Origin: Flavobacterium aquiphilum
Lineage (GTDB): Bacteria > Bacteroidota > Bacteroidia > Flavobacteriales > Flavobacteriaceae
DNA length: 64,000 bases
Assembly (NCBI RefSeq): GCF_027111335.1
Contig: NZ_CP114288.1
Location: 4,650,001-4,714,000, forward strand
Direction: 5' to 3'
Under the pieces are notes generated by a model. The model made no database searches. It saw nothing but the letters and a program-made list of their open reading frames with translations, and was not told the origin of the DNA. A program made the position numbers and the translations under genes. Positions within the stretch are counted from its first letter, which is position 1. Every line of letters begins with the position of its first letter. Below are positions 8,401-63,828 of the stretch, in pieces.

Positions 8401-8404
8401 CAAT

Positions 8405-11737: not shown

Positions 11738-11758
11738 TCTTTCTAAAAATTTATTGCG

Positions 11759-11843: not shown

Positions 11844-11855
11844 CACCCGAAACAT

Positions 11856-11928: not shown

Positions 11929-11963
11929 CTAAGGTAGCCTTATTGAGATTACAAAACGCACAT

Positions 11964-12036: not shown

Positions 12037-12070
12037 CTAATAAGAATCTCAATATAACATAAACGCACAT

Positions 12071-12143
12071 CGCGGGATAGAGCAGTAGGCAGCTCGTCGG
12101 GCTCATAACCCGAAGGTCACAGGTTCGAGTCCTGTTCCCGCTA
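12071..12143 (+). tRNA. initiator tRNA-fMet (CAT), copy 2
   Basis: Identical over all 73 bases to copy 1, with the same C1/T72 mismatch and GGG/CCC pairs in the anticodon stem. A terminator follows seven bases later, so copies 1 and 2 and the broken copy probably form one transcript. Confidence 0.95.
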
Positions 12144-12150
12144 CTAAGAA

Positions 12151-12178
12151 AGAGAACTAATTTAAGTTCTCTTTTTTT
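12151..12178 (+). terminator. terminator of the tRNA unit
   Basis: Stem AGAGAACT (12151-12158) and AGTTCTCT (12165-12172), loop AATTTA, followed by a T-run to 12178. Confidence 0.85.
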
Positions 12179-12235
12179 ATGCCCTAAAATTAGGGGTTGT
12201 AGTACTACATCTCAAAAAAGTTAGGGATTTATCAC

Positions 12236-12341
12236 AAATCTTATTCATAATTTGTAACTCGTCAGACTCATATCCGCCGCGGCGGACACAGGTTCGAGTC
12301 CTGTTCCCGCTACTAGAAAAGCTTCACATTGTGGAGCTTTT
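12236..12341 (+). pseudogene. GIY-YIG gene tail fused to tRNA-like 3' half (remnant)
   Basis: Bases 12236-12256 are identical to the last codons of the GIY-YIG gene at 12595-12615. They run straight into CTCGTC and a tRNA-fMet-like 3' half (12257-12315) in which TCCGCCGCGGCGGA replaces the 3' anticodon stem; the T-arm and acceptor end TTCCCGCTACTA match the intact tRNA. A hairpin with T-tract follows (AAAGCTTCACA near 12318 with TGTGGAGCTTT). This looks like what is left of an earlier copy of the downstream unit after loss of the coding part. Confidence 0.7.
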
Positions 12342-12361
12342 TTCATTTACAAGACTTTTTT

Positions 12362-12616
12362 ATGAATGAATTTGTTGTTTACATATTATATTCTGAAAAA
12401 TTTGATAAGAATTACACTGGCTTCACCTCCAATTTAATTGAACGGTTCAAATCTCACAATCATCTTGGCACCAAAGGACACACCTTAAAATTTAGACCAT
12501 GGAAAGTTATTCATGTTGAATTTTTCAATTCTAAATCAGAAGCAATGCGAAGAGAAAAATATTTAAAAACAGGTACAGGAAGAGAATTTATTAAAAATCT
12601 TATTCATAATTTGTAG
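12362..12616 (+). CDS. small GIY-YIG endonuclease family protein
   Basis: 84 residues from ATG 12362 (MNEFVVYILYSEK); the in-frame ATG at 12329 overlaps the preceding terminator and is less likely. The GIY-YIG core is visible: VYIL at the start, then NYTGFTSNLIERFKSHN with the catalytic-type Arg, and Glu in SKSEAMRREKYLK. These stand-alone domains resemble the UvrC N-terminal nuclease and homing-type nucleases; the cellular role is not established. The stop codon lies in TAGCTCGTCGG, the D-arm sequence of the neighbouring tRNA-fMet, so the gene ends inside tRNA-like DNA. Another gene tail of the same kind lies 360 bases upstream. Confidence 0.85.
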   Translation: MNEFVVYILYSEKFDKNYTGFTSNLIERFKSHNHLGTKGHTLKFRPWKVIHVEFFNSKSEAMRREKYLKTGTGREFIKNLIHNL

Positions 12617-12712
12617 CTCGTCGGATTCATATCCGCCGCGGCGGACACAAGTTCGAGTCTTCGACGCGGCGAACTACTAAGAAAAGCTTCAGAAAAATCT
12701 AGAGCTTTTTTT
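12614..12712 (+). repeat. tRNA-fMet-like 3' half with palindrome, after the GIY-YIG gene
   Basis: Begins in the GIY-YIG stop codon (AGCTCGTCGG), continues TTCATA, then the 14-bp palindrome TCCGCCGCGGCGGA (12632-12645), a T-arm-like ACAAGTTCGAGTCTT and a degenerate acceptor with CTACTA. A hairpin and T-run (AAAAGCT near 12682, AGAGCTTTTTTTT to 12712) act as terminator. Parallel in layout to 12236-12341. Confidence 0.75.
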
Positions 12713-12724
12713 TGTTTATAGACT

Positions 12725-12767
12725 ATCTAATTTAGATAGCGGGTGCGAAGTCGGGAGACATTCGCAC
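12725..12767. repeat. two short hairpins in the GIY-YIG/lipoprotein intergenic region
   Basis: TATCTAATTTAGATA near 12724-12738 is a small inverted repeat. Next GTGCGAAGTC (12743-12752) pairs with GACATTCGCAC (12757-12767) apart from one bulged A, loop GGGA. It could end transcription of the gene at 12817 or be a dispersed repeat; no T-tract follows. Confidence 0.4.
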
Positions 12768-12816
12768 AGCTTTTCAAAAGAAGACTTTGTAGAGCGAATA
12801 AAAGATTATTCTATGA

Positions 12817-14478
12817 TTATTTACTTCTCAAATTTTCAAAGTTAAACACTTGTCCATTGCTTGATTTTACAGATATATAATAATTCCCTAGAGGTAAATC
12901 AAGAGCAATCTCGTCTCTTTTTGGAACGGCAAGAATCGATTCAATAGGGATTAATAAATCTGCTTTTCTAGTTTTATTATATTCTTCCAACGAAAAAACT
13001 TCAACCAATAATTCTTCATTTTTAAAAAATCTAAATTTTTTGTTTTTCAAAAATACTTTTTTAAAAACCTCATTCGGATAAATCGATTTTAGATTTGCTT
13101 CAAGATTATTTATTAAAAAATAATCAGCACTTGATTTCATTAAAGTATCCTTTGCAAATACAGACCTAGGAAGCAACACCAATTTTTCGTTCGTTTTGGT
13201 TATAAGTGACTCCTGATTAATTGTAATTGGATCAATCTTAGAATATTCTTTTAAATAACTAGCCATAGCACGCCTTTCCCCTTCTTCTTCCAAATGACCA
13301 TGCCCCACATAAATAAAGATTTTTGCGTTCGGATCTTTCTCTATTATTTTCATGATATTCTTTGCCTGACCTGCTTCTCTATCTATATTTCGATCAGTAT
13401 TTTCATGACCTAAAATAGTAAATCCCATTGTATATGCTTTTCTAACAAAATGGCCAAAATAGGGATCTTTGATATAAAATCCATTTTTAGCATTTGGGAA
13501 TACGCCGATATTATCACCCTCATTTCCATTGAATGTTTCGAGTGAAACATATTTAAAATCATTTTGTTTTAAAACATCCAATAGCTGCATGGCAAACAAT
13601 CGATGCTTAGGATAATAATGACCTTCATTAAGAATAATTATCTTATTATTCTTTGCAAGTCGAGAAATTTCAGCAAAAACATTTTCATCCTTTTTAACTA
13701 TATCTTCAGATAAAGCATTTGCAACAGTTTTATCAAATCGATCTTGTTTATTTTCATAATCTCTTATTAGCGAATCATTCTCTTTGTTGTTACTCATAAA
13801 AGAATTTAAAGTATAGTATAAGGATTCTTTGAATTGAAGCTCTTTCGGATCTTTTATTGGAACCGACTTTAATTTATTCCTCCCCTTCAAATAATTTTTA
13901 TTTGGTTCAAACGTATAATAATTAAAGATTTTTATGTAAGACAGTTTATTCAAGTTCCTATCATCCAAATAAACTCTTTTTATATTATCCGAAATCATTT
14001 TTAAATTAGTTACTCCTTCTTTCAATTTATGCGTAATGCAGACAATTTTATTGGAACCTTTTTGTTTTTCAGACACAACAATCCCATTGATGCTATCATT
14101 CCTCATTAATTTCTCATGCGTAATTGTATCTGTAGTATTCCTTAAATTTTTAAAAAAATAAAACACTTCAAAATTTTGATCTGTTTTATAACTTAAAATC
14201 AAATCGTTTATGGAAACATCTTTATTAGCATTTAGTACTTTTTTCAATTTATTTTTTTCAATTTCAGAAACATCATTATAATAAGTTACATTCCCTAAAA
14301 TATCAACAGAAACATTTGCTAAATCATTGTAACACAAATCACCATAATTTCTTTGCTTAACGAAATAATTATGTTTACTAATATCCTGCCCAATTGCTTT
14401 ACATCCAAAAAAGATTAAAAAACAAGTTATGGCAAAATGCGATTTTATAAAATTAATTTTATTGTTATTCAAGATCAT
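12817..14478 (-). CDS. lipoprotein, possible ChaN/EreA-like fold
   Basis: 553 residues with a hydrophobic signal ending in FFGC (Cys26 or near), so probably a lipoprotein. The central part has IIILNEGHYYPKHRLFAMQL, YVSLETFNG and IFIYVGHGHLEEEGERRA: Glu-x-His and Gly-His-Gly-His motifs spaced as in the erythromycin esterase/ChaN/TraB-like superfamily. The resemblance is from motif spacing only. The N-terminal 200 and C-terminal 100 residues are not recognised. It is rich in Lys and Asn and more AT-rich than its neighbours, and it stands next to the tRNA/GIY-YIG region, which fits accessory DNA. No other gene shares its transcript. The 300 bases upstream hold only the next hairpin. Confidence 0.55.
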   Translation of the reverse strand: MILNNNKINFIKSHFAITCFLIFFGCKAIGQDISKHNYFVKQRNYGDLCYNDLANVSVDILGNVTYYNDVSEIEKNKLKKVLNANKDVSINDLILSYKTDQNFEVFYFFKNLRNTTDTITHEKLMRNDSINGIVVSEKQKGSNKIVCITHKLKEGVTNLKMISDNIKRVYLDDRNLNKLSYIKIFNYYTFEPNKNYLKGRNKLKSVPIKDPKELQFKESLYYTLNSFMSNNKENDSLIRDYENKQDRFDKTVANALSEDIVKKDENVFAEISRLAKNNKIIILNEGHYYPKHRLFAMQLLDVLKQNDFKYVSLETFNGNEGDNIGVFPNAKNGFYIKDPYFGHFVRKAYTMGFTILGHENTDRNIDREAGQAKNIMKIIEKDPNAKIFIYVGHGHLEEEGERRAMASYLKEYSKIDPITINQESLITKTNEKLVLLPRSVFAKDTLMKSSADYFLINNLEANLKSIYPNEVFKKVFLKNKKFRFFKNEELLVEVFSLEEYNKTRKADLLIPIESILAVPKRDEIALDLPLGNYYISVKSSNGQVFNFENLRSK

Positions 14479-49932: not shown

Positions 49933-50050
49933 AGATTACCCAAATAAAATAGGTAATTAAAAAAATTAAAGGTGAGATTGTACTATTCTCTTGAAAGAAC
50001 CTAAAAAAAGAAAAAAAATAAAATCAATCTTACCAGATTAATAACAAAAA

Positions 50051-50075
50051 AGCCTGCTCAAATTCTGAACAGGCT
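50051..50075 (-). terminator. terminator after the gene at 50103
   Basis: AGCCTG (50051-50056) and CAGGCT (50070-50075), with TCA/TGA extending inward; A-run 50046-50051 gives the - strand T-tract. The ~170 bases between this and 49877 show nothing gene-like. Confidence 0.6.
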
Positions 50076-50102
50076 CCTTATAATAGATTGAAAAAATTGT
50101 TT

Positions 50103-50408
50103 TTAAGATCTAAACAATCCTTGTTTATGAGTATTGAATAAAACTAAATCGTAAGGAACTAATTTAGGCGCTACTTTCTCTGAAGAAGCATCAAACGTGA
50201 TACCGTTGTATTTTCTGAACAAATAAATCTCTTTTAGACAATTTGATAAACTCTGGTGAATTAATGTCGTAAAAGTCGGTAGTTGTTTGTCACCAACCAA
50301 TAAATCAATTTGATAATTCGAACTACTTTTCGATAAATTATTGCCGATGATTCTTAAAGTGAATGTTGTTGGGATTCCAAATTGTTTCCCTTGATACTGT
50401 ACGATCAT
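50103..50408 (-). CDS. small protein of unknown function
   Basis: 101 residues without a signal peptide or membrane segment: MIVQYQGKQFGIPTTFTLRI, NYQIDLLVGDKQLPTFTTLI, LFRKYNGITFDA. Predicted mixed alpha/beta. No family recognised. A -7 element TAGCTTTG on the - strand (50529-50536) lies 120 bases upstream and a terminator follows, so it appears to be its own unit. It sits next to the encapsulin operon but across a terminator. Nothing else is visible in 50409-50700. Confidence 0.6.
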   Translation of the reverse strand: MIVQYQGKQFGIPTTFTLRIIGNNLSKSSSNYQIDLLVGDKQLPTFTTLIHQSLSNCLKEIYLFRKYNGITFDASSEKVAPKLVPYDLVLFNTHKQGLFRS

Positions 50409-50528
50409 ATTATTTGAGGTTTAAATGTGAATTAAAAAATTATAGACTGACTTTCGTTCATTCTTAGTAGATGCCTTTAAAAATAGTAATTTGATATAAT
50501 TACGACCTTTAAATTATCAGCTCTACAA

Positions 50529-50536
50529 CAAAGCTA
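50529..50536 (-). promoter_or_regulatory. -7 element for the gene at 50103
   Basis: On the - strand TAGCTTTG fits TAnnTTTG; TTTG (50553-50556) lies 16 bases further upstream. The leader would be about 115 bases. Confidence 0.45.
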
Positions 50537-50707
50537 CTTAATAAAATTGTTTCAAACGACTTTTAAGAATCTAAAATTTTCATAAATTCTAAGGAAGAAA
50601 AATGGTTTCCCATGCAAACAAACTGGATATTTTGGACAATAATTATGACGGATTGAGAGTAATTTTATTTAAACGGTACTAATAGCATAGAATTATTAAT
50701 CTAAGCA

Positions 50708-50734
50708 AAAACCTCAGGACAAGTCTGAGGTTTT
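50708..50734 (-). terminator. terminator after the encapsulin operon
   Basis: AAAACCTCAG (50708-50717) pairs with CTGAGGTTTT (50725-50734), loop GACAAGT, nine bases beyond the cysteine desulfurase stop codon. Confidence 0.75.
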
Positions 50735-50742
50735 TATTTTTA

Positions 50743-52749
50743 CTATTTATCCTTTTTCAACCGCCAAAGCGTTTCTATAAACACATCTACATCCTGGCAA
50801 GTATTATAAAAAGCCAATGAAGGACGAACTGTGGTTTCTACACCCATTCTCCTTAAAATAGGCTGCGCACAATGGTGTCCGGTACGCACAGCAATTCCTT
50901 CCTTGTTCAACGCTTTTCCTACCTCATCATTTGTAAAACCGTCCAGTGTAAACGAAAGTACGCTCGCTTTATTGGCCGCTGTACCTATCAATCGGACTCC
51001 AGGTATCTGTTTGAGTTGATGGGTAGCATATTCCAACAAATAATGCTCATACTGCCCGATTGCTTCTATCCCAATTTTCAAAATATAATCAATGGCTGCA
51101 CCAAGACCAATTGCATCGGCAATGTTTCCTGTTCCCGCTTCGAAACGGCTAGGTGCTTTGTGGTATTTGATTTCCTCAAAAGTCACATCCTGAATCATAT
51201 TCCCACCAGATTGATAAGGTTCCATTTCATTTAATAAATCTTCTTTTCCATATACAACTCCAATACCTGTTGGCCCGAACAATTTATGTCCCGAAAAAAC
51301 AAGCCAATCGGCATTAAGATAGCGCACATCGACTTTCATGTGCGAAACAGACTGCGCTCCATCCAACAATACTTTGGCACCAACTGCGTGTGCCATATCT
51401 ACCATTTGTTTAGCAGGTGTAATGGTTCCCAACGCATTTGAAACTTGGGTAACTGCAACCAATTTTGTCTTTGGATTCAATAATTTAGCATATTCATCAA
51501 GTAAAATCTGTCCATTGTCATCTACTGGAATCACTCGCAAAACAAGTCCTTTTTTATCGGCTAAACGTTTCCAGGGAACAATATTTGCGTGATGCTCCAA
51601 ATGACTGACAATTATTTCATCCCCTGCATTCAATTTATGGTTTCCCCAACTTTCAGCCACCAAATTGACTCCCTCGGTTGCTCCGCGCACAAATACAATT
51701 TCGTTTACAGAACCGGCATTCAAAAAGGCTCTTACTTTTTCACGGGCGGCCTCGTAAGCATCTGAAGCTCTCGCAGCCAATTCATGCGCTGCGCGGTGAA
51801 TATTTGAATTTTCATGTTCGTAAAAATAGGCAACACGGTCAATCACTGTCTTTGGTTTTTGGGTAGTCGCAGCATTATCAAACCAAATTAAAGGTTTTCC
51901 ATTTACAGTTTCACTCAAAATCGGAAAGTCTTTCTTAATTAAATTGGCATCAAAATTTGATCCAACCCATCCTTTTTCTGTTTGATTAGGAATCGAATTA
52001 ACAGATGAAATTACAGGTTTTTTGGAATCAAAAGCAAACGGATTTTCATCAAGAAAATAATAACTGTTCTTATTATCCAATCCAACAGTATTTGTTTTCA
52101 ATGGAATCCCAAAATCTTTATTTATCAAATTTAAAGCGGCTTTTAATTCGGCTTCAAAAGAAGCTCCTTCGTGTTCAAATGGTAAGTAAGAGGGCTCTTC
52201 TTTATGCTGTAAATTCAAATCTTCAAAACTTGTTTGCGGATTACCCATATCAACATTATTGCCGGTTCCTACTGCAAAAGGCACTTCACCACTTCCCAAG
52301 GTATATTGCGAAGTATCGATTCCGTAAAGGTTTTGTTCCAAAAAATTAGAATTTGAACTATTCGAAAATGAATGAGGCGTTTTACCGAAATCTCCCAAAT
52401 TACCATAAGACCCAACCGATGGAGAAACCCCAAAACCTCCCATAGATTGCGGCGATTTAGGAAAACCCAACGGACTCTCAGGCAAATTTGGAATTCCTGA
52501 CATTCCATGATCTGCTTGATTCACCAAAGTATCATGGTTACTTACCGGAAAAACAGTTTCAACCTGACCCAAATTACCGGCAGAAAGGAGTGTTTCAGCA
52601 ATTTTAGTAGCGCGAGGATGTTCATTAGGGTCTGGGCTCAAGGAAATTTCTTTTGGAAATTCATTGGGCAAAGCACTGAACAACTCATTGGCTATGCGCT
52701 GTAAATCCTCAATATTCGGTAAACCGGGATTACTATTATTTGTATTCAT
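50743..52749 (-). CDS. family 2A encapsulin cargo cysteine desulfurase
   Basis: 668 residues, about 260 longer than SufS. The N-terminal ~255 residues are low-complexity (Asn, Ser, Gly, Pro) with a conserved helical start LQRIANELFSALP (16-28), then a Gly/Ser/Pro stretch (GVSPSVGSYGNLGDFG), and EAELKAALNLINKDFG. The rest is a SufS-like type II cysteine desulfurase: WFDNAATTQKPK, Lys489 for PLP in SGHKLFGPTG, and active-site Cys627 in RTGHHCAQP. It takes sulfur from cysteine as persulfide. In characterised family 2A systems the disordered N-terminus directs the enzyme into the shell. The start codon lies 14 bases inside the shell gene end. Confidence 0.94.
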   Translation of the reverse strand: MNTNNSNPGLPNIEDLQRIANELFSALPNEFPKEISLSPDPNEHPRATKIAETLLSAGNLGQVETVFPVSNHDTLVNQADHGMSGIPNLPESPLGFPKSPQSMGGFGVSPSVGSYGNLGDFGKTPHSFSNSSNSNFLEQNLYGIDTSQYTLGSGEVPFAVGTGNNVDMGNPQTSFEDLNLQHKEEPSYLPFEHEGASFEAELKAALNLINKDFGIPLKTNTVGLDNKNSYYFLDENPFAFDSKKPVISSVNSIPNQTEKGWVGSNFDANLIKKDFPILSETVNGKPLIWFDNAATTQKPKTVIDRVAYFYEHENSNIHRAAHELAARASDAYEAAREKVRAFLNAGSVNEIVFVRGATEGVNLVAESWGNHKLNAGDEIIVSHLEHHANIVPWKRLADKKGLVLRVIPVDDNGQILLDEYAKLLNPKTKLVAVTQVSNALGTITPAKQMVDMAHAVGAKVLLDGAQSVSHMKVDVRYLNADWLVFSGHKLFGPTGIGVVYGKEDLLNEMEPYQSGGNMIQDVTFEEIKYHKAPSRFEAGTGNIADAIGLGAAIDYILKIGIEAIGQYEHYLLEYATHQLKQIPGVRLIGTAANKASVLSFTLDGFTNDEVGKALNKEGIAVRTGHHCAQPILRRMGVETTVRPSLAFYNTCQDVDVFIETLWRLKKDK

Positions 52750-53653
52750 GATACTTGTCTATTTGTACATCCTCTAGTACCGCAATTGCATCATCAACAG
52801 TAATTACCAATGAACAATACAACGATACTAAATAAGAAGCAATGGCTTTCTCATTTATCCCCATAAAACGGACAGATAAACCAGGAGACTGTTCCCCTTG
52901 CAATCCGGGCAAAATAAGCCCAATTACACCCTGACGGCTTTCGCCGGTACGCATCAAAATGATTTTGGTTTTCCCATTTTCTATTGGCAATTTATCCGAA
53001 GGTATAAGCGGAATACCTCTCCAGGTAAGGAACTGCGAACCAAACAAAGAAGTGGTGGGAGGCGGCACTCCTCGGCGGGTACATTCACGCCCAAAAGCAG
53101 CAATGGCCAAAGGATGTAACAAGAAAAAACCTGGTTCTTTCCATACTTTGGTCAACAATTCGTCCATATCATCTGGAGTAGGCGCACCAGTTCTCGTCTT
53201 GATAACTTGCGAAGGAGCTACATTGCTCAACAAACCGTAATCTTTATTAATAATCAATTCCCGTTCTTGTCTTTCTTTTATAGTCTCAATTGCAAGGCGC
53301 AATTGTTCTGTAATTTGATTATACGGTTTACTATACAAGTCCGATACACGGGTGTGCACATCGACTATCGTTTGCACGGCAGCCAAATTATATTCTCGGG
53401 GATTATCTATATAATCGACAAAAGTATTTGGGAGTTCATGTTCATCTCTTCTGGAACAATCAACTTCTATTTGTTTTGCATCCTTTACTTTATTCAAACG
53501 ATACACTCCTCCTTCAACCGGAACCCAATGCAAAAGATGTGTGAGCCATCTTGGGGTAATGGCAACCATTTGTGGAACTGAACGGGTTGCAATTGCTAAC
53601 TGTCTTGCGGCTACGTCTCCTAACGCAGTTTGCTGTTTTTTTAATTCTGCCAT
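52736..53653 (-). CDS. family 2A encapsulin shell protein
   Basis: 305 residues from ATG 53653 (MAELKKQQTALGDVAARQLA); an upstream in-frame ATG at 53740 would add 29 unrelated residues. The segment VPQMVAITPRWLTHLLHWVPVE followed by GGVYRLNK is characteristic of SrpI-type encapsulin (family 2A), an HK97-fold protein that self-assembles into a T=1 shell. Later FLTWRGIPLIPSDKLP and VDDAIAVLEDVQID are also typical. No cyclic-nucleotide-binding insertion (family 2B) is present. It is the first gene of a two-gene operon; the cargo gene overlaps its end by 14 bases. Known relatives enclose cysteine desulfurase and store elemental sulfur. No clear promoter was found in 53654-53970. Confidence 0.95.
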   Translation of the reverse strand: MAELKKQQTALGDVAARQLAIATRSVPQMVAITPRWLTHLLHWVPVEGGVYRLNKVKDAKQIEVDCSRRDEHELPNTFVDYIDNPREYNLAAVQTIVDVHTRVSDLYSKPYNQITEQLRLAIETIKERQERELIINKDYGLLSNVAPSQVIKTRTGAPTPDDMDELLTKVWKEPGFFLLHPLAIAAFGRECTRRGVPPPTTSLFGSQFLTWRGIPLIPSDKLPIENGKTKIILMRTGESRQGVIGLILPGLQGEQSPGLSVRFMGINEKAIASYLVSLYCSLVITVDDAIAVLEDVQIDKYHEYK

Positions 53654-53973
53654 TGTTTTATCTATTAAGTTATATCTAATACTATTAATCACAAACAAGG
53701 TTGATTTAAAGAAACAACGCACATGAATTCGAAAGACCAAATTCCTTTAAACCAAATCAAAAAAGAAAAGAACAAATTCTAAAAAGGAGTAACATTAGCC
53801 ATTAATCAGAAATAAATTCATGGACAGCACCCCTCAAAAAAGCAACTATTTACGATAAAGATTGTTTAAAAAACACATTATATTTTTCTACTAATTTAGC
53901 ACAATTATATAACTACCACAATATTAATTATTTAAATAAAAAACGGAAGACTAAAAAAGATTTTAAGAAAACG

Positions 53974-54007
53974 AAAAACCCTGTAAGCATGACTTTACAG
54001 GGTTTTT
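53974..54007 (-). terminator. terminator after the LRR gene
   Basis: Perfect 13-bp stem AAAAACCCTGTAA (53974-53986) and TTACAGGGTTTTT (53995-54007), loop GCATGACT. It works in either direction; it separates the LRR gene from the encapsulin operon. Confidence 0.85.
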
Positions 54008-54064
54008 CTAACTAAATGTATTAAAACAAACAATTTTCAATATTTTGACATTGAAAAGAAATTA

Positions 54065-54901
54065 TCATCCTTTTATAACGGGCAATGAAACAACATTTCC
54101 AACTTCATTTCGCATAGTCATATTCAGTTTATCCAATAATGATAATTTGTTGGAAACTTGTCCAGTAAACAAATTATAGGATATATTCATTTTTTTTAAA
54201 CGGGTCAATTTCTCCAATTCTATTGGAACTTGTCCCTTGAAATCATTGTCAAAAAGATTTAAATTCTCCAGCATAATCAAATTACCTATTGCAGAATTTA
54301 ACTTACCGGTAAATCTATTTGTATACAAAGATACTGATTTTAAAGATTTTAACTCATAAAAAGATGCAGGCAACTGCCCTTGAAATGAATTTTCATACAA
54401 TGACAAATTCTCCAACATCGAAAGTTTCCCTATTTGCTGAGGTAACTCACCCGATAAAATATTTCGGTCCAATACTAATGCTTTTAAATTTGGCAACGAA
54501 CAAACAGAAACCGGAATAAATCCTGTCAATTTATTGAACGAAAGATCCAAAACCTGCAACGATTTCAAATTTCCAATATTTAAAGGAATTTCGCCGTTCA
54601 GTAAATTAGTCCCTAAATTCAGTTCTTGCAAATTAAGCAAAGTAGTAATCTCAACAGGAATGCGCCCTGTCAAATTATTGTTTCTCAAGTTTATGGAAAC
54701 AACTTTGTCGTCTACGATTTTGACTCCATACCATTTCTCCATTGGCTGGGAAATATCCCATTTATTGATCCATTTTTGGCCATTGGTAACCTGGTTTAAT
54801 TTTATCAAAACATCTTTTTCGGCCTGAGATATTGCGGCAAAAGCAGAAATCGAAAAGAAGACAGTAACAATAAAAAAAAGTAGCGTAATTTTTTTCCTCA
54901 T
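54065..54901 (-). CDS. secreted leucine-rich-repeat protein
   Basis: 278 residues, signal peptide (to ISAFAA). An N-terminal cap with KWINKWDIS and MEKWYGVKI is followed by about seven 24-residue repeats with the plant-type consensus LxxLxLxxNxLxGxIPxxIGxL (NNNLTGRIPVEITTLL, FNKLTGFIPVSVCSLP). The last repeat is degenerate. No anchor or enzyme domain. It probably mediates protein or glycan binding; the plant-like consensus does not by itself mean transfer from plants. Terminators on both sides make it a separate unit within the sulfur-related block. Confidence 0.85.
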   Translation of the reverse strand: MRKKITLLFFIVTVFFSISAFAAISQAEKDVLIKLNQVTNGQKWINKWDISQPMEKWYGVKIVDDKVVSINLRNNNLTGRIPVEITTLLNLQELNLGTNLLNGEIPLNIGNLKSLQVLDLSFNKLTGFIPVSVCSLPNLKALVLDRNILSGELPQQIGKLSMLENLSLYENSFQGQLPASFYELKSLKSVSLYTNRFTGKLNSAIGNLIMLENLNLFDNDFKGQVPIELEKLTRLKKMNISYNLFTGQVSNKLSLLDKLNMTMRNEVGNVVSLPVIKG

Positions 54902-55019
54902 TTACTTTGTTTAAAATTTATCATTCCAAAAATAATTAAAAACTCCGTTAATAAACAACAAAAAATCGACAAATTAACTAAAAACACAACTTAATGAATA
55001 TATATCTTACAAAAAAAAA

Positions 55020-55050
55020 GCGCAATAGTTTAGAGACTAAACTATTGCGC
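55020..55050 (-). terminator. terminator after the rhodanese-thioredoxin gene
   Basis: Perfect 14-bp stem GCGCAATAGTTTAG (55020-55033) and CTAAACTATTGCGC (55037-55050), loop AGA, with an A-run (55011-55019) giving T9 on the - strand. It lies 144 bases beyond the stop codon. Confidence 0.85.
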
Positions 55051-55193
55051 GAACAAAAAAAAAAACCAAGTAATGGACTAACTAAAAAACCAAACTATCT
55101 TTTATATTTCAAACAAAAATTAATTTCCTGTAAACTCAGTGAGTTTTATTTTCCCAGAGTCATTTTTGCAATTATCAAAGTTATTTTCAAATG

Positions 55194-55910
55194 CTAATTT
55201 GAAGCCAAAACCAAATCAACATCTTTTTTCAAATCGCTTAAACCGTCTTTTTTAAAAACGATTTTACCGTTTCTATATAAAATCAATGTTGGAAAAACCT
55301 TAACTGTTTTCAAATCGGCAATAACTTGAGGATTTTCTTCCAAATCGATCTCAACAATTTTTATTGTTTCACCATATTGTGTCTTGATGGCTTCCAAAAT
55401 AGGCTTTACTTTCTTACAGGCTGCACAATATCTGGATCCAATATCAACCAAAACATTATTGTTGTCAGCAATCACTTTTTTGTATTCTCCTAACGATAAT
55501 TTACTTTTTGAATTCGAATAAAACGGCTTTCCCACTCCTATCCAAGCTGCTATTCCTCCTTCTAAATCATGGACTTCAGTAAAACCATTTTTCAATAATT
55601 CTTTTGCTAACAGCCCGCTTCTGTAAGCTCCTATCGAATAAATAAATACAGGTTGTGATTTATCTAATTTTGCGACATATTGAGCATAATTCTTTGTTTC
55701 CAAATTAAAATTAACCGCATCATTGATATGATTATTTGCAAACTCTTCAGAACTTCTGGCATCAATTATCTGTGGCTTTTTCTGCTCTTTAATTTTTGCA
55801 TAAAAGGAATCTATTTGCAATGTAAATAAGTTCTGATTTTGAGCAAAACCAACCATTCCAAAAAATATGACTATTGCCGTGATACTGTTTTTGAATATTT
55901 TTCTTCTCAT
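55194..55910 (-). CDS. secreted rhodanese-thioredoxin fusion, rhodanese site lost
   Basis: 238 residues, signal peptide (to GFAQN). Residues ~30-125 are a rhodanese fold (IDARSSEEFANNHINDAVNF, VHDLEGGIAAWIGVGKP), but the catalytic Cys of the CxxxxR loop is Ser: IYSIGAYRS (Ser codon 55635-55637). Residues ~130-238 are a thioredoxin with CAAC in GSRYCAACKKVKP and the cis-Pro in VFPTLI. So it may bind sulfur anions without transferring sulfur, while the thioredoxin part does redox work in the periplasm. Six bases after the desaturase-family gene, so co-transcribed with it. Confidence 0.88.
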   Translation of the reverse strand: MRRKIFKNSITAIVIFFGMVGFAQNQNLFTLQIDSFYAKIKEQKKPQIIDARSSEEFANNHINDAVNFNLETKNYAQYVAKLDKSQPVFIYSIGAYRSGLLAKELLKNGFTEVHDLEGGIAAWIGVGKPFYSNSKSKLSLGEYKKVIADNNNVLVDIGSRYCAACKKVKPILEAIKTQYGETIKIVEIDLEENPQVIADLKTVKVFPTLILYRNGKIVFKKDGLSDLKKDVDLVLASN

Positions 55911-55916: not shown

Positions 55917-56984
55917 TTAAGATTGAACTGGCTCGTATATATTTTGATTTACTGAAGTAGTTTCTTTCTTCGGAGAAATTGGCAATGCTAAAACTCCATC
56001 TGCTAAAGGGCTTCCCTCTTTTTTAGATTTGAATATCGGCCAAAGAAATTGTGCGTACCATTCTTCACTTTTATATGATTTTGTTCCGTATGACTTAGGG
56101 AATTTGCGTGTAATCAAGCCAGTGCCAAAAATCACATCCCATATAAAAAACATATTCCCGAAGTTTCCTTTAAAGTATCCAACACCATCACCACTTGTAT
56201 CCGCATGGTGTGCATGATGCGTGGCCGGAGTCGAAATCAAACGTTCCAAAACCCATGCAATTGGATGTAATACTTTGTATTTATAAAAAGGTTTGTCCCA
56301 AGCGATACTGGAATGTGCGCCCAAAGTGATAAAACTCTTTATAACAGTAACAAACAAAGCAGGCAATCCTAAGCCTAAATAAGTCAATGTAGCGGTCAAA
56401 TAAATTTGGGAGAAAAACACGGTATAAATAAAGTTTTGTCTCGAAGCCATAGCCATTCCCATATATGGAGCTGAGTGATGCGTTCTATGAAAACGCCACA
56501 GAAAAGGTACTTGATGATGCAAGCGATGGTACCAATACTGCGTTAAATCATCGGCAATGGCAATCAGGAAAAAGCCTCCCCAAAACGGAACCCACGAAAG
56601 CGTATTTTCCAAACTTGGAATTAAATAAGGTAATGCAGTCAAGCTAAAAAAAGCAATTACGGGAGGCAAAAGCAATTTTGGAGCCAAAAAACAAATGATA
56701 TCAATTTTGCGTTCTGTTCCTGTCCATTGGTCATCATATAAACCAGCAGCAAATTCGATTGCTCCTAAAACAAGCATAAAAACGATTAATCCCCAAGTTC
56801 GGATATTTTGGAATGCAGGTTTCACAAATTCCAAAAACGATGGCAAAACCAAATGTGATTCTGTCACATCCCCATTGCTTATCTTAAAATAAAGGTAGAT
56901 TGCCAGTACCGGCAAACTGTATATCAAAAGACTAATGCTCAAGTCTTTTGTTAGTTTTCTTTTTAAATTTTGATCTAATGCCAT
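55917..56984 (-). CDS. sterol desaturase / fatty-acid hydroxylase family membrane enzyme
   Basis: 355 residues with several membrane helices (LLIYSLPVLAIYLYF, GLIVFMLVLGAIEFAAGLY, FWGGFFLIAIADDLTQYW). Di-iron histidine boxes HRLHH, HRTHH and THHAHH are all present. The substrate is not readable: relatives act on sterols, carotenoids, fatty acids or alkylglycerols. With an arylsulfatase and SusCD next to it, a lipid-like sulfate ester is one possibility. Follows the 39-residue protein gene. Confidence 0.88.
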   Translation of the reverse strand: MALDQNLKRKLTKDLSISLLIYSLPVLAIYLYFKISNGDVTESHLVLPSFLEFVKPAFQNIRTWGLIVFMLVLGAIEFAAGLYDDQWTGTERKIDIICFLAPKLLLPPVIAFFSLTALPYLIPSLENTLSWVPFWGGFFLIAIADDLTQYWYHRLHHQVPFLWRFHRTHHSAPYMGMAMASRQNFIYTVFFSQIYLTATLTYLGLGLPALFVTVIKSFITLGAHSSIAWDKPFYKYKVLHPIAWVLERLISTPATHHAHHADTSGDGVGYFKGNFGNMFFIWDVIFGTGLITRKFPKSYGTKSYKSEEWYAQFLWPIFKSKKEGSPLADGVLALPISPKKETTSVNQNIYEPVQS

Positions 56985-57191: not shown

Positions 57192-59111
57192 TTAATTGCT
57201 ACTTCCGGATTGTGCTCCTTTATGAATCAACTCCTGAAGATTTTGGTTTTTATCCCCACTAGCATTATGTATTTTTCTACCCAACACATCTTGCCAATCA
57301 ATTAGTGGATACAAATTGTTCTCTTTGGCTTGCTCATCAAATAACTTTTTAAGCTCAGCCAATTTTTCAGGATACTTTTGAGCCAAATTAACACGCTCGT
57401 TAAAATCTTCGTTTAAGTTGTACAATTCCCAAACATCGGTATCAAAATTGGTTTGTTTTGGAGCTTCACCTTTACCTATCGAACTTTTCAAAGCAAATGA
57501 ATCCGGAAGATGAGCTGCACCCGCTTTCCAGCCATCTTTGTAAATCGCTCTGTTTCCAAAAATATAATAGTACTGTACTTTGTGTAACGATTCGGCTTTA
57601 GGATCATTCAACGAAGCATACAAAGAAGACCCTTGAATTTTATCCTGCTTAATTTCTTTGATAGTTTCAGGCGCTTTGATCCCCACAATATCCAAAGTAG
57701 TAGGAAGAATGTCTGTTACATGGCTGTATTGGTTTCTGATTCCTCCTTTTTCTTTAATTCCTTTTGGATAATGAATAATCAACGGATTACGGGTTCCTCC
57801 TTCGGACTGAGCATCTTGTTTCCAATTTTTAAAGGGTGCATTGGTCGCTTGTGCCCAACCTAATGGATAATTTGTATTTAATCCTTTTGGTGTACCAATT
57901 TCTCCAATGTTCGCTAAATTAGCCTGAAGATTTTCTTCGTCTGATGTCCCTTTGGCAAAAAGATTTTGACTAATTGTACCCTGAGTAGTCCCTTCTTTAC
58001 TTGCGCCATTATCCCCGATGGCTAAAAAAATCAAGGTATTATCCAGTTGATTGCTTTCTTTTAGATAATTAACAACTCTTCCTATTTCGTGGTCGGTGTA
58101 AGTAAGATATCCGGCATAGACTTCCATGAATCGGGCATACACTTTCTTTTGATCTGGAGTCAATTTTTTCCAATCGGCAATGAGCGGATTACGTTCAGGC
58201 AATACCGCATTGGCAGGAATCACACCCAATTTCTTTTGGTTTGCCAAAACTTTTTCACGATAAACATCCCAACCTTCGTCAAATTTCCCTCTGTATTGAT
58301 CACTCCATTCTTGTGCCACTTGATGCGGAGCATGAACGGCTCCCGGTGCATAGTATAAAAAGAAAGGTTTTCCAGGAGCTGCTTTTTGTTGTTTTTGGAT
58401 ATAACTAATGGCTTTGTCTGTAATTTGATCCGTTAAATGTCGTCCGTCTGGTTTTACGTGTGCTTGATCTTCCACCAAATCAGGATTGTATTGATCGGTT
58501 TGAGAACCTAAGAAACCAAAGAAATGATCAAAACCTTTACCGGTTGGCCAACGGTCAAATGGACCAGCATCTGTAGCGTCCTCATCAGGAGCTACACCGT
58601 ATTTACCAACAGCAAAAGTGTTATACCCATTCTCTCTCAAAATCTCTGCAACTGTTCCTTTATCTGACGGAATTTTTCCATCCCAACCCGGAAAACCAGC
58701 CGAAAGAACCGTGTGAGAGAAACCGCTAACATGAACTTTCCCTGAATTTCTTCCTGTTAAAAGTGCCGCACGGGTTGGCGCGCAAATTGCTGTGGTGTGA
58801 AAATTAGTATATCGAAGCCCATTATTTGCCAAAGCATCAAAAGTTGGTGTTTGTATCAAACCTCCAAAAGCACTTGAAGCTCCAAATCCTACATCGTCCA
58901 ATAAAATCCAAACGATATTAGGAGCACCAGCTGGCGCTTTTACAGGTTCCGGCCAATATTCTTTTGAATCAGCCAATGTTTTACCGATAACGCCTTTGTA
59001 ATTTGCGTCCGGTTTGTTTTGGGCAAAGCCAAATTGTGCTACAAGCAAGGCAATAGCCAACAGCCCTTTTTGTGGGGTTTTCAACTTTAAATTGATTTTT
59101 AAATTTTTCAT
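57192..59111 (-). CDS. secreted arylsulfatase (type I, FGly-dependent)
   Basis: 639 residues, signal peptide ending VAQFGFAQ (residue 31). Metal site LDD (71-73) and maturation motif C110-APTR-114 (CAPTRAALLTG). YNTFAVGKYGVAP and IGDNGASKEG complete the sulfatase core. It releases sulfate from an organic sulfate ester, which is then available for uptake. Third gene after SusC and SusD with 19 bases between SusD and it: a three-gene transcript. Not close to the sulfatase at 6534. Confidence 0.93.
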   Translation of the reverse strand: MKNLKINLKLKTPQKGLLAIALLVAQFGFAQNKPDANYKGVIGKTLADSKEYWPEPVKAPAGAPNIVWILLDDVGFGASSAFGGLIQTPTFDALANNGLRYTNFHTTAICAPTRAALLTGRNSGKVHVSGFSHTVLSAGFPGWDGKIPSDKGTVAEILRENGYNTFAVGKYGVAPDEDATDAGPFDRWPTGKGFDHFFGFLGSQTDQYNPDLVEDQAHVKPDGRHLTDQITDKAISYIQKQQKAAPGKPFFLYYAPGAVHAPHQVAQEWSDQYRGKFDEGWDVYREKVLANQKKLGVIPANAVLPERNPLIADWKKLTPDQKKVYARFMEVYAGYLTYTDHEIGRVVNYLKESNQLDNTLIFLAIGDNGASKEGTTQGTISQNLFAKGTSDEENLQANLANIGEIGTPKGLNTNYPLGWAQATNAPFKNWKQDAQSEGGTRNPLIIHYPKGIKEKGGIRNQYSHVTDILPTTLDIVGIKAPETIKEIKQDKIQGSSLYASLNDPKAESLHKVQYYYIFGNRAIYKDGWKAGAAHLPDSFALKSSIGKGEAPKQTNFDTDVWELYNLNEDFNERVNLAQKYPEKLAELKKLFDEQAKENNLYPLIDWQDVLGRKIHNASGDKNQNLQELIHKGAQSGSSN

Positions 59112-59130: not shown

Positions 59131-60600
59131 TTAATAACCTGGATTTTGTGGTAACCCAACAGGGTCTATGTTTCGTTCACTTTGCGGAATTGGATACAAA
59201 TTGTTTCGCTCTGAAACTGAGTTTTTGGCAGTTACTTTTTTCACTTCGGTTACCAAAGTTCCCCAACGAACCAAATCAAACCATCTTTGCCCTTCCTGAA
59301 CAAATTCTTTTTTTCGTTCTTCGCGTATGGCATCTCTTAACTGTGCAGTTGTAAGTCCTACTAAATCTACAGTCACATCAGGAGTCGTAATTGGTTTTCC
59401 AAAAGCCCTTCTTCTTACTTGATTTACGTATTCAAAAGCTTCTGCAGTTGGTCCGCTTTGTTCATTGGTCGCTTCCGCAAATGACAAAAGGATATCCGCA
59501 TAACGAATCAATGGGAAATTAATAGCTACATTAGAAGGATTTGCTAAATTGGTTTCATCAAGATATTTACTGAAAATTGGCTTTGGAAAAGTATAAAGCG
59601 TTCCGGTTGCCGGATTCAATAATTGTTTTTTGTAACTCACATCCCTTCTCGTATCTCCAGCAGCATAAATATCATAGAACAAAGCCACATCCGATATAAT
59701 GTCTGCAGGTTCTGTTGCAGTAAATCCGGTAAAAGAAGTCGCTTGAAAAGTACTTCCGCTGGAACCATTACCTGCTTGATTTGGTTCAAACTGAACAGAA
59801 AAAATATGTTCTTTTCCGTTCTTTTTGGCTTTATTAAATATGTCGGCAAAATTTTCGAAAAGTGCATATCCATAACCTCCGTTAATTACTTCTTTGGCTT
59901 TAAGGATCGTATTTGGCCAATCTTTTCTGGTCAAATATACTTTTGCCAAAATCGCTTTTGCAGCGCCCGAAGTAGCACGTCCGGCATCTGACGAAGCATA
60001 AGTAGAAGGCAAACTTTCTGCTGCTGTTAAATCCGAAATAATCTGCGCGTAAACCTCTTCAACAGTTGCTCTTCTTGATTTTAAACTCTCCAATTGAATA
60101 GAAGTTGGTTCATGCAAAACGATTGGAACTCCTCCCCAAAGGCGAACCGCCTGAAAGTATAGCAAACCTCTGATGAATTTGGCTTCATTAATCAATCTCG
60201 TTTTTATAACTTCTGAACCACTTGCTCTTGGAATATTATCAATAGCCACGTTGGCTCTGTTAATACCGTTGTATATTTGGCGCCAAGCCACTTGCACACG
60301 ATCAGATGTGGCATCATGAGTCAAACTACTCAAAGCCCTTACCTGAGGATTCGTAGCCGATACTCCAGCCGCTGCATAATCGGAAGCCATGTCAGTGAGA
60401 AAATATAGGTTTCTTCCAAAAAGGCTTTGCTCTCCCGGATCGATGCTCAATGAGGCGTAAACTGCGGTTACACTTGCAACAGCATCATCTTGTGTCTGAA
60501 AGAAATTTTCTTCGGTTATAAAGGAGGTAGGTGTTACCTCCAGATCAGTGCACGACACCAATATCGTAGCACTTAATAATATTGTTATTATCTTCTTCAT
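59131..60600 (-). CDS. SusD/RagB family lipoprotein (second system)
   Basis: 489 residues, lipobox ILVSC (Cys17). SusD hallmarks: NEAKFIRGLLYFQAVRLWGG and VPIVLHEPTS, KAILAKVYLTRKDW, and the C-terminal AIREERKKEFVQEGQRWFDLVRWG with LYPIPQSERNIDPVGLPQNPGY. Partner of the SusC gene 18 bases upstream. Its association with a sulfatase rather than with glycoside hydrolases suggests a sulfated small compound rather than a glycan. Confidence 0.94.
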   Translation of the reverse strand: MKKIITILLSATILVSCTDLEVTPTSFITEENFFQTQDDAVASVTAVYASLSIDPGEQSLFGRNLYFLTDMASDYAAAGVSATNPQVRALSSLTHDATSDRVQVAWRQIYNGINRANVAIDNIPRASGSEVIKTRLINEAKFIRGLLYFQAVRLWGGVPIVLHEPTSIQLESLKSRRATVEEVYAQIISDLTAAESLPSTYASSDAGRATSGAAKAILAKVYLTRKDWPNTILKAKEVINGGYGYALFENFADIFNKAKKNGKEHIFSVQFEPNQAGNGSSGSTFQATSFTGFTATEPADIISDVALFYDIYAAGDTRRDVSYKKQLLNPATGTLYTFPKPIFSKYLDETNLANPSNVAINFPLIRYADILLSFAEATNEQSGPTAEAFEYVNQVRRRAFGKPITTPDVTVDLVGLTTAQLRDAIREERKKEFVQEGQRWFDLVRWGTLVTEVKKVTAKNSVSERNNLYPIPQSERNIDPVGLPQNPGY

Positions 60601-60618: not shown

Positions 60619-63600
60619 TTAAAAAGTTACGTTCACGCCCGAGATGAATGTTTTGGAATTTGGATAAGACCCAAAATCAATTCCGGGGTATAAATTATTT
60701 TGTTCATAAGAACTTACCTCTGGATCATAACCTGTGTATTTTGTCCAGGTCACCAGATTTTCGGCAGATACATAAAATTTAACGCTTTGGGTTCCCAGTT
60801 TTTTGGAAACACTCTTAGGTAATGTGTATCCAAAAGTGATTAGTTTCAGTCTCAGGAAAGAAGCATCTTCCACATAACGTTCTGAAACAATTCCCAACGG
60901 AGAACTTGATGCTCTAGGGATTTCATTACTTGGGTTTGTAGGTGTCCAACGATCCAATAATGTTGTAGCGGCATTTGTTCCAAGAGTAGAGATTTCCAAC
61001 TGCTGATTCAAAGCATTGAATATTTTTCCTCCATAAGACCCTTGGAAAGAAAATTGCAAATCGAAGTTTTTATAAATAAGGGTGTTGCTAAAACTTCCAA
61101 CAAATTTTGGTTGAGAGCTTCCAAGATTACCTTTGTCAAGAGATGTAATAACTCCATCTCCATTAGTATCCACATATTTTCTGTCACCTACTTTTGTATT
61201 GGTAAGACTGTTTATTTTAGGTTGCGTATTCACTTCTTCCTGAGTTTGGAAAATACCATTGGTTTGGTATCCCCAGAAAGTTCCCAAAGGCAATCCTACT
61301 TTTACCGTTACAGGTTGTTGCTGTAGCAAAGAACCATTTGGAACTACTGGAAAGAATTGGTCAACCCCATTTCCAATTTCGACTACTTTGTTTCTATTTA
61401 ACGAAAACACAAAATTTGAATTCCATGAAAAGTTTTCAGTTTTTAGGTTTTCGGTATTTAAACCAATTTCGATACCCTTATTTTCAACTCCTCCAATATT
61501 CTGAAGAACTGTGGAATATCCCGAAGTCAACAGAATAGGCACATTTATAAGCAAATCATTTGTTCTTTTGTAATAAGCGTCAAAAACAAAATTGATTTTT
61601 CTGTCCAAAAGCGATAAGTCCAAACCAACATTGTATTGCGTTGTTTTTTCCCATTTCAAATCTGGATTTGCCAAACGTGTTGGTGCCAATCCCGTTTGTA
61701 TAGCACCACCAAAAGAATAATTTACCGAACCGATAGAAGCCAAAGAAAGGTAATTTCCAATTTCCTGATTTCCGGTTGTTCCAACACTCAATCTAAGTTT
61801 TGCTTCATCAACTCCTTTAAGATCTTTGGCAAAATCTTCTTCGGTAATATTCCAGGAAAAACCTGCTGAAGGGAAATAACCCCAAAGCGACTCCGAGCCA
61901 AATCTTGAAGAACCGTCTGCACGTGCCGATACAGTAAGATTGTATTTTCCATCATAAGAATAATTCACTCTGGCCAACCACGATTTCAATACACTTTCGA
62001 ATGCATCACTATACGGTTTTACAGCTGTTCCGTCCTGCAAAGCATTGTAAGTAACAGCATCATTTACAAAATAATTAGCTCCTGCATTAACCACTTCGCC
62101 TTGTGTATATTGAAGCGTGTATCCCGCCAAAGCCGAAAACTTGTGGTTTTCTCCAAAGTGGGTATTGTAATTTATGGTATTTTCATTCAAAACTGAACTT
62201 ACTAATCGATCACCAACTGAAGCTAAACCTTTGGTTCCTGCCCCAGTTCCTGTAGTAGATGGAGCGTAGTAATTTTGTTTGGTATTAATCACATCCCCGC
62301 TCACGGAAACCTTAGCAGTGATTTCTTTGTTTATTTTGTATTCACCAAACAAACTGGTCAGAATTCTATTGATTTTAGTTTCATTTGTGGTGTTTTCCAA
62401 ATCATTAATTGGATTAGCAATTATTCCGTTAACCGCTGTTGCATAAGGATTATTGCTTAGGTTATAAGAACCGTCAGTATTATAAATAGGAACCACCAGA
62501 GGTTGATACACAACAGCAACTAATGGATTAGGGTTTCTTCCTCCGCTATTATTCCCAATACCGTTTGAAATAGAATTACTGTAATTGGCATTTACACCAA
62601 ATTTGAATTTTTGGGAATAGTTTCTCTCGTAATTGGCACGAAGCGAAATTCTTTTGAAATCTGTTGCAATTACAACTCCGTCCTGATCAAAATAACCAGC
62701 AGAAACTGCATATCTGGAACGATCATCACCACCGGAAAATGTTAGTTGATGATTTTGAACCGGAGCAGTTCTAAAAGCAGCTGACTGCCAATCGTAATCT
62801 CCCGAAGTTTTTAAAGCTTCTATTTGTGCGGCTGAAAAAGAAGGAGCCTGACCTATACTCGCCTGAACGTCATTACGCAAACTTGCCCATTGTGAAGCAT
62901 TAAGCAAATCAAGTTTTTTAGAAACAGACTGTACTCCAAAATATCCTTGATATGAAATGGTATCCAAGCCTTTGGTCCCTTTTTTGGTCGTAATTAACAC
63001 TACTCCATTAGCTCCACGAGATCCATAAATTGCTGTTGCCGATGCGTCTTTCAACACTTCTATCGACTCAATATCTCCCGGACTGATCGTTGACAGTACG
63101 TTAACTCCTGCCCCAGCGTTGGTAACACCTGCAGTGCCATTATTATTGTCATTGTAAATTAATACTCCATCTACAACATAAAGTGGTTCATTACCCGCAG
63201 TAATTGAATTCCCTCCTCTAATTCGAACACTGGAAGTTGCTCCCGGTCGTCCTGAACTTTGAGTAACCACAACACCAGGCACAGCCCCTCTCAATAAGTT
63301 ATCTGCTGATGAAGTTACTTGATTTAAATTTCCTTTGGGAACAGAAGCTATTGCTCCGGTAATATCTTTTCTTTTTTGAGAACCATATCCTACAACAACT
63401 AACCCATTAAGTTCTTGAAGGTCTTCTTCTAAATTGATAATAACCGGACTTCCGTCAGCAATATATTCGATTTTTTTATAGCCAACATAGGTTACGACTA
63501 AGGTATAAGGAAATTTTTGACCTGTTTGAAAATAAAATTTACCTTCTGAATCAGTCACCACTGCGTGGGTAGTTCCTTTAATAGTTACTGTAGCGCCGGC

Positions 63601-63738
63601 AACAGGCAAATTCGTTATTTTATTAACCACTGTTCCGTCAAGTTTCGATTGAATGAGCGGTTTTGTATTTTGGGCGTAAATTCCAATTGAAATTAGAAAA
63701 ATGCCGAGCCATAAAAGATTATATAATATTTTTTTCAT
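60619..63738 (-). CDS. SusC/RagA family TonB-dependent transporter (second system)
   Basis: 1039 residues from ATG 63738 (MKKILYNLLWLGIFLISIGIYAQ); the ATG at 63816 would add 26 residues before the signal. Carboxypeptidase-regulatory-like domain (VVNKITNLPVAGATVTIKGT), LNGLVVVGYGSQKRKDITGA, plug ISPGDIESIEVLKDASATAIYG and a long barrel ending in FISGVNVTF. First gene of the SusC-SusD-sulfatase unit. Outer-membrane import through TonB. Confidence 0.95.
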   Translation of the reverse strand: MKKILYNLLWLGIFLISIGIYAQNTKPLIQSKLDGTVVNKITNLPVAGATVTIKGTTHAVVTDSEGKFYFQTGQKFPYTLVVTYVGYKKIEYIADGSPVIINLEEDLQELNGLVVVGYGSQKRKDITGAIASVPKGNLNQVTSSADNLLRGAVPGVVVTQSSGRPGATSSVRIRGGNSITAGNEPLYVVDGVLIYNDNNNGTAGVTNAGAGVNVLSTISPGDIESIEVLKDASATAIYGSRGANGVVLITTKKGTKGLDTISYQGYFGVQSVSKKLDLLNASQWASLRNDVQASIGQAPSFSAAQIEALKTSGDYDWQSAAFRTAPVQNHQLTFSGGDDRSRYAVSAGYFDQDGVVIATDFKRISLRANYERNYSQKFKFGVNANYSNSISNGIGNNSGGRNPNPLVAVVYQPLVVPIYNTDGSYNLSNNPYATAVNGIIANPINDLENTTNETKINRILTSLFGEYKINKEITAKVSVSGDVINTKQNYYAPSTTGTGAGTKGLASVGDRLVSSVLNENTINYNTHFGENHKFSALAGYTLQYTQGEVVNAGANYFVNDAVTYNALQDGTAVKPYSDAFESVLKSWLARVNYSYDGKYNLTVSARADGSSRFGSESLWGYFPSAGFSWNITEEDFAKDLKGVDEAKLRLSVGTTGNQEIGNYLSLASIGSVNYSFGGAIQTGLAPTRLANPDLKWEKTTQYNVGLDLSLLDRKINFVFDAYYKRTNDLLINVPILLTSGYSTVLQNIGGVENKGIEIGLNTENLKTENFSWNSNFVFSLNRNKVVEIGNGVDQFFPVVPNGSLLQQQPVTVKVGLPLGTFWGYQTNGIFQTQEEVNTQPKINSLTNTKVGDRKYVDTNGDGVITSLDKGNLGSSQPKFVGSFSNTLIYKNFDLQFSFQGSYGGKIFNALNQQLEISTLGTNAATTLLDRWTPTNPSNEIPRASSSPLGIVSERYVEDASFLRLKLITFGYTLPKSVSKKLGTQSVKFYVSAENLVTWTKYTGYDPEVSSYEQNNLYPGIDFGSYPNSKTFISGVNVTF

Positions 63739-63828
63739 TACTTTGTTTTGGTTTAATAAATAAGGAGCTTGAAAACTGATGAAAATCAATTTTCTCTTTC
63801 CGTTTAACGATAACATTTTTTTAAGCCT

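Follow-up and report, generated by a model that had tools for sequence, protein, structure and literature searches.

Do the two overlapping genes at positions 50743-53653 of this Flavobacterium aquiphilum window (the whole analysed stretch of 64,000 nucleotides) encode a sulfur-handling nanocompartment, and does their place beside a sulfatase and SusC/D island carry a functional meaning? The benefit that a cell draws from sulfur-handling encapsulins is unsettled. Flavobacterium includes both carriers and non-carriers of the compartment, twice with the site itself in common, and lends itself to a natural comparison; the possible sulfur-supplying genes beside the pair make a tractable setting for testing the compartment's value to the cell. 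The pair and its targeting motifs are located as follows.

52736..53653, minus strand: family 2A encapsulin shell protein, 305 aa (NF041162 523 bits; PF19307 346 bits; 216/299 identities in the alignment with SrpI, 6x8m)
50743..52749, minus strand: cysteine desulfurase cargo, 668 aa, with a disordered targeting region (~1-265) and a SufS-like domain (NF041166 892 bits; Aminotran_5 480 bits; 8kg1 603 bits)
52675..52704, minus strand: LQRIANELFS, the first N-terminal motif, at residues 16-25 of the cargo and corresponding to the published LARLANEFFS; L16, A20 and F24 do not vary across an alignment of 18 cargo sequences
52048..52062, minus strand: YYFLD, the second N-terminal motif, at residues 230-234 of the cargo; Y231 and F232 are constant throughout the 18-sequence cargo alignment

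The sequence-only reading had described a family 2A shell of 305 aa and a cysteine desulfurase cargo of 668 aa, overlapping by 14 bases, in a Flavobacterium-type genome. The ORF coordinates bear out the lengths and the overlap (52736-52749), with the shell read from its ATG; the ORF list also has a longer frame, opened mechanically at a TTG (53740). The family assignment is well supported. Both proteins exceed the cut-offs of the curated NCBIfam models for the family 2A shell (380 bits) and the family 2A cysteine desulfurase cargo (800 bits), the shell is 72% identical to SrpI and 70% identical (211 of 300 residues) to the A. baumannii family 2A shell 8t6r, the cargo carries both N-terminal motifs, and Flavobacterium relatives with 89-93% shell identity appear among the best 80 of 538 relatives. 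The pair is another member of an already known group.

The SrpI-like domain was the sole Pfam domain found in the 305 aa of the shell, which has no cNMP-binding domain, as is characteristic of family 2A. Through the common shell domain the protein also scored 423 bits against the family 2B model NF041163 (cut-off 400); since the cNMP-binding domain is absent, the 2B assignment was ruled out. The motif TPRWLTHLLHWVPVE, previously attributed to the shell, was located in its translation. Six SrpI residues are named by Nichols et al. (2021, PMC8049743; cited throughout from part of the paper), and five of them are kept (SrpI/here: G194/G195, P196/P197, F262/F263, Y273/Y274, R192/R193), the sixth, R304, being replaced by K305. 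The predicted shell model, for which the alignment had 16 rows, reached a mean pLDDT of just 48, a poor value. Its top seven Foldseek matches were all family 2 encapsulins (rmsd 13-19 A), with weak phage-capsid matches ranked below them. Because of the low quality of the model, we used the match ranking alone, and it is the sequence identity that carries the shell claim.

The cargo scored 549 bits against the SufS model TIGR01979 (cut-off 475), and its best solved relative was 8kg1. The PLP lysine Lys489 and the catalytic Cys627 are where they had been placed, within SGHK (486-489) and RTGHHC (622-627), respectively; both are invariant among the 18 aligned cargo sequences and fall in the SufS-family domain, as in a SufS-type enzyme. 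Of the N-terminal extension described earlier as disordered and about 255 residues long, the disorder is upheld by prediction for most of the length (pLDDT below 50 over residues 1-10, 26-39, 44-47, 52-124, 126-203 and 205-264), and the length needs correction to about 265 aa, with the catalytic domain starting near residue 266. LQRIANELFS sits at the position given for it, inside a short predicted helix (residues 13-25). A second motif, SYYFLDENPF around residue 230, had been missed. It is the counterpart of AASPYYFLDG, which was published together with LARLANEFFS (Nichols et al., PMC8049743). The cargo has, then, the predicted disordered targeting region with two conserved motifs that is typical of family 2A. 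Patterns for the first and second motifs matched 96 and 110 of 120 cargo sequences from the fetched loci, a set in which many sequences come from the same genomes twice. Median identity to 39 relatives in the genus was 42% for the N-terminal region vs 86% for the domain, a difference expected for a disordered targeting region.

A search of the window's own genome returned one shell match and two genes above the SufS cut-off, namely the cargo and a gene at ~542 kb; the cargo is therefore an additional desulfurase and not the sole SufS of the cell.

Among the nearest known relatives, the A. baumannii family 2A encapsulin (8t6r) of Benisch et al. 2024 reportedly holds a desulfurase cargo and stores elemental sulfur; the Flavobacterium pair resembles it in the shell. 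For SrpI of Synechococcus elongatus, assembly, loading and rate enhancement were demonstrated (Nichols et al. 2021, PMC8049743). With the S. elongatus SrpI/CyD system the pair shares the shell-desulfurase arrangement, the disordered targeting region with both motifs, and most of the named pore and cargo-site residues. It differs in the host phylum, in the overlap of the two genes, in the adjoining sulfatase/SusCD island and in the R304 to K305 replacement. By analogy with these relatives, the Flavobacterium pair would be expected to form particles, to retain its cargo and to store sulfur.

The shell was found in 40 of 299 Flavobacterium genomes, with the cargo directly after it in all 40 and overlaps of 14 to 29 bp, values that depend on mechanically chosen start codons. 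One carrier is F. johnsoniae CI04 (L115). A sample of the family (299 genomes, 236 genera) gave two matches, both Flavobacterium, and the other 235 sampled genera gave no encapsulin shell. In a quick tree of shell and cargo domain (89 loci, with Flavobacterium as the sole genus of its family), all 42 Flavobacterium rows grouped together (100% SH-aLRT), nearest to Emticicia and some Chitinophagaceae. The grouping, along with the absence from the rest of the family sample, points to a gain of the pair from outside Flavobacteriaceae, though the pattern may also stem from loss elsewhere in the family.

Across the phylum, 62 of 395 genomes matched. The search included 55 matching genomes of one family (f18). 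In one locus (L239, genome G752, positions 963-13508) the shell was of family 2B (NF041163, 584 bits), accompanied by a 749-aa desulfurase that scored 784 bits against the 2A cargo model, just below the cut-off of 800. The same strand carried cysteine synthase, cystathionine gamma-synthase-like and O-acetylhomoserine sulfhydrylase-like genes; further genes there, identified by eye only, resemble an acetyltransferase, ThiG, ThiH and ThiF. The other f18 genomes were taken as 2B from split matches. The FMO antenna protein was matched at 740 bits or more in three of four f18 genomes tested, with a fragment in the fourth, so these genomes look like green sulfur bacteria.

The surroundings of the pair in the window contain the following features.

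50103..50408, minus strand: 101-aa protein, right neighbour of the pair (no NCBIfam or Pfam family match; flanks the site in L214 and L223)
54065..54901, minus strand: leucine-rich-repeat (LRR) protein, left neighbour of the pair (Pfam; at 4 of the 40 loci a member of this family is close to the shell)
55194..55910, minus strand: apparently exported rhodanese-like and thioredoxin protein, Ser aligned with the rhodanese Cys (Pfam; signal peptide read by eye)
55917..56984, minus strand: fatty-acid hydroxylase family membrane protein of the island (PF04116)
57192..59111, minus strand: sulfatase of the island (PF00884, 216 bits)
59131..60600, minus strand: SusD-like outer-membrane lipoprotein of the island (PF07980, PF14322)
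60619..63816, minus strand: SusC-like transporter of the island (SusC cluster and profile)

We compared this neighbourhood with up to 20 kb around the shell in 39 other genomes (L045, L065 and L070 being shortened by contig ends), clustered the genes, and built island profiles from the clusters with score thresholds set by hand. The window was scanned over its whole 64 kb; the island genes in it are no more than ~10 kb from the shell. Within ~10 kb, the profiles found the sulfatase in 32 of 40 encapsulin loci, a YeiH-like transporter in 28, the rhodanese/thioredoxin protein in 26, the fatty-acid hydroxylase in 24, a serine acetyltransferase (SAT) in 23, a cysteine synthase (CysK) in 22, SusD in 20, SusC in 18 and an alkanesulfonate-monooxygenase-like protein in five. 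A sulfatase or a monooxygenase-like gene was present in 37 of 40 loci; of the three having neither (L065, L069, L070), two are limited by contigs. The 20 control stretches gave no sulfatase, 2 SusC and 1 SusD, as read from a small set (one stretch from each of 20 of the same genomes, at 1/3 or 2/3 of the contig) with profiles trained on encapsulin loci.

Several of these names are approximate. Scores short of the curated cut-offs were obtained for the YeiH-like protein (98 vs 233 bits) and for the monooxygenase (240 vs 518); the acetyltransferase is below the cysE cut-off (168 vs 211 bits) and at that of EpsC (151 vs 150). The C-x-P-S/T-R active-site pattern of sulfatases was matched by 143 of 184 sulfatase ORFs over all fetched loci, leaving 41 without a match. 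The rhodanese-like/thioredoxin fusion, found in the window and at other loci, is a recurrent island protein. A serine stands at the catalytic-cysteine position in 65 of its 68 copies (the printed sequence falls short of the position in three, and some loci were fetched twice), and the thioredoxin CxxC pattern is matched in 51, the other 17 being without a pattern match. Since the protein looks exported and has Ser for Cys, it would make a poor cytosolic sulfur acceptor, and as a candidate for that role it was set aside. The LRR protein matched plant-pathogen-effector LRR models far below their cut-offs, most likely through generic repeats.

Among published loci, 111 family 2A cysteine desulfurase operons were counted in Bacteroidetes, where the accessory genes described as enriched include serine acetyltransferase and rhodanese (Andreas and Giessen 2021, PMC8346489; cited from part of the paper). 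Unlike the setting in Flavobacterium, the operons in that part of the paper come with no mention of sulfatases, of SusC/D or of a YeiH-like transporter, nor of sites that either carry or lack the pair. Our full-text literature search returned no paper that treats encapsulin together with both sulfatase and Bacteroidetes, and none that does so with both cysteine desulfurase and Flavobacterium; in the literature as covered by it we did not find a description of the genus-level sulfatase-island setting. Outside the genus, a sulfatase lay beside the pair in five of 32 other Bacteroidota loci (all Dyadobacter) and in 0 of 15 Pseudomonadota loci, some loci being ended by the contig, compared to 14 of 32 and 11 of 15 for the serine acetyltransferase. 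SAT is a wider companion of the pair than the sulfatase. In the window genome neither SAT nor CysK lies beside the pair; the sole SAT match, at 50% identity, is ~590 kb away, and so is the strongest of the five CysK matches, at 67%.

To what extent do island and pair depend on each other? The rhodanese/thioredoxin gene, taken as a marker of the island (E-value 1e-40 or better), was detected in 64 of 299 genomes of the genus: in 38 of 40 genomes with the shell vs 26 of 259 without it (Fisher p ~2e-28, uncorrected for ancestry), where, among the 38, G060 matches partially and has an internal stop, and, among the 26, G098 and G295 are only 35-36% identical. Marker and shell shared a contig in 35 of the 38 genomes; 26 genomes had the two no more than 10 kb apart and 32 no more than 20 kb apart, and in one the distance was 134 kb. 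Twenty of the 26 shell-free marker loci were fetched (G098, G184, G210, G213, G282 and G295 were left out). All 20 carried the sulfatase, the hydroxylase and SusC/D, and 15 the YeiH-like gene, so the island does not need the encapsulin. On the other hand, the acetyltransferase was found in none of the 20 and the cysteine synthase in one (vs 23/40 and 22/40 with the encapsulin), which indicates that the cysteine-making genes tend to accompany the encapsulin.

Sites with and without the pair could be compared directly. The gene order in the window is LRR gene, shell, cargo, 101-aa gene, NAGLU; it is LRR gene, 101-aa gene, NAGLU in L223 and LRR gene, 101-aa gene in L214, with gaps of 335 and 396 bp, respectively. 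DNA similarity to L214 and L223 stops just past the LRR hairpin, at ~53967 (81% over 126 bases, 88% over 72 bases). It picks up again ahead of the 101-aa gene, at ~50588 for L214 (75% over 205 bases) and 50547 for L223 (74% over 72 bases).

50589..53967, no strand: approximate extra DNA relative to two encapsulin-free genomes with the same flanks (ends of flank similarity, window vs L214 and L223)

This difference of ~3.4 kb comprises the pair, its upstream region and the downstream hairpin. With two genomes compared, it would represent either an insertion in the window genome or a loss in L214 and L223. The site is variable: other genes lie between the same flanks in L224 (gap 2806 bp), and extra genes lie beside the pair in L064-L066.

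The terminator scan placed hairpins on both sides of the pair.

50707..50735, minus strand: terminator-like hairpin just 3' of the cargo gene (the scan listed it for the plus strand alone; its stem can be read in either direction, with a minus-strand end TTTTTG)
53973..54008, minus strand: terminator-like hairpin after the upstream LRR gene

The scanned region held eight terminator-like sites vs 3.4 expected. With hairpins on both of its sides, the pair is probably not co-transcribed with the island in the window. Promoter-like sites in 50000-55300 were at chance level (18 vs 19.2 expected) for the promoter types covered by the scan. The upstream regions of 39 encapsulin units, 20 SusC genes and 28 YeiH genes were searched for dyads and for k-mers of 6-8 bases, with 220 control upstream regions, which gave no motif shared by the encapsulin units and the SusC/YeiH genes beyond A/T runs, so co-regulation of pair and island is unsupported. 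Rfam models matched nothing near the pair; over the window they gave two tRNAs and a Flavo-1 RNA at 3024-3101 (76.7 bits, gathering score 42).

In our judgement the pair probably is an optional, self-contained sulfur-storage module, a family 2A encapsulin with its desulfurase, situated beside a sulfur-acquisition locus. Sixty SrpI-like subunits would assemble into a shell of roughly 24 nm. The disordered N-terminal region, with the LQRIANELFS helix and YYFLD, would draw the desulfurase inside by binding near the threefold axis, and the fivefold pore would admit cysteine. The enzyme would convert cysteine to alanine and leave sulfane sulfur behind, which may build up as a store within the lumen. 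Often joined by a serine acetyltransferase and a cysteine synthase of its own, the pair would act as an optional module beside the sulfatase and SusC/D island, which looks fit for sulfur scavenging, so that sulfur acquired in good times could be banked. Gene identity, pairing, motifs, active-site residues, island linkage and the site with and without the pair were all observed directly. Assembly, loading, catalysis and storage would be as in the relatives, and the island may serve sulfur supply and share one purpose with the compartment.

Three other explanations have to be weighed against the storage module. That the shell gene is a prophage capsid remnant beside a housekeeping SufS might be suggested by the HK97-like capsid fold common to phages and by the weak phage-capsid matches of the shell model, which rank below encapsulins. 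Curated shell and cargo models well above cut-off, no phage family among the 27 window ORFs scanned with Pfam, a separate SufS over the cut-off elsewhere in the genome and the shell-cargo pairing in 40/40 genomes refute this in practice. A family 2A encapsulin might also work without storage, by shielding or accelerating desulfuration for a particular acceptor, or by limiting toxic sulfide or excess cysteine. We consider this unlikely: a relative reportedly stores sulfur (Benisch et al. 2024), and the rhodanese-like protein of the island, being exported-looking with Ser at the Cys position, would be a poor cytosolic acceptor, which favours storage of scavenged sulfur with the island as a source and not a sink. 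Still, the desulfurase of S. elongatus became about sevenfold more active on encapsulation (PMC8049743), and a co-regulated rhodanese acceptor was proposed by Andreas and Giessen (PMC8346489), both of which speak for a non-storage role.

A different question is whether the linkage of pair and island has any functional meaning. Inherited gene order or a common insertion hot spot could produce it; we see this as possible, if somewhat doubtful. In 33 of 40 loci the pair occupies one chromosomal site beside ornithine aminotransferase (OAT), the OAT-site rows form one clade (34 rows), and the island is found without the pair; a hot spot would agree with the variable site in the window, occupied by other genes in L224 and joined by extra genes in L064-L066. 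Yet the sulfatase linkage is also seen at places other than the OAT site (the window, L064, L066 and L068), and SAT and CysK are nearly confined to islands with the encapsulin (0/20 and 1/20 without it vs 23/40 and 22/40 with it). A tight link between pair and island is opposed by the missing common promoter motif, the flanking hairpins, the lack of adjacent SAT and CysK in the window and the few sulfatases outside the genus. Returning to the storage module, we extend it tentatively, with confidence a little short of evenly balanced, to a portable sulfur bank: a shell and a desulfurase, often with cysteine-making enzymes, which would have been acquired in this genus from beyond the family and placed, in more than one chromosomal location, beside a ready-made island for scavenging sulfate esters and sulfonates. 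If true, scavenging and storage would be combined at one locus.

Elsewhere in the window, a second sulfatase-like ORF at 6534-8246 scored 466 bits against the island sulfatase profile, ~42 kb from the cargo gene. The region 14779-49674 carries genes for polysaccharide utilisation: an arabinofuranosidase, two GH28 enzymes, a beta-galactosidase, an inositol oxygenase, a hybrid two-component regulator, two GH92 enzymes, NAGLU and a SusC/D pair.
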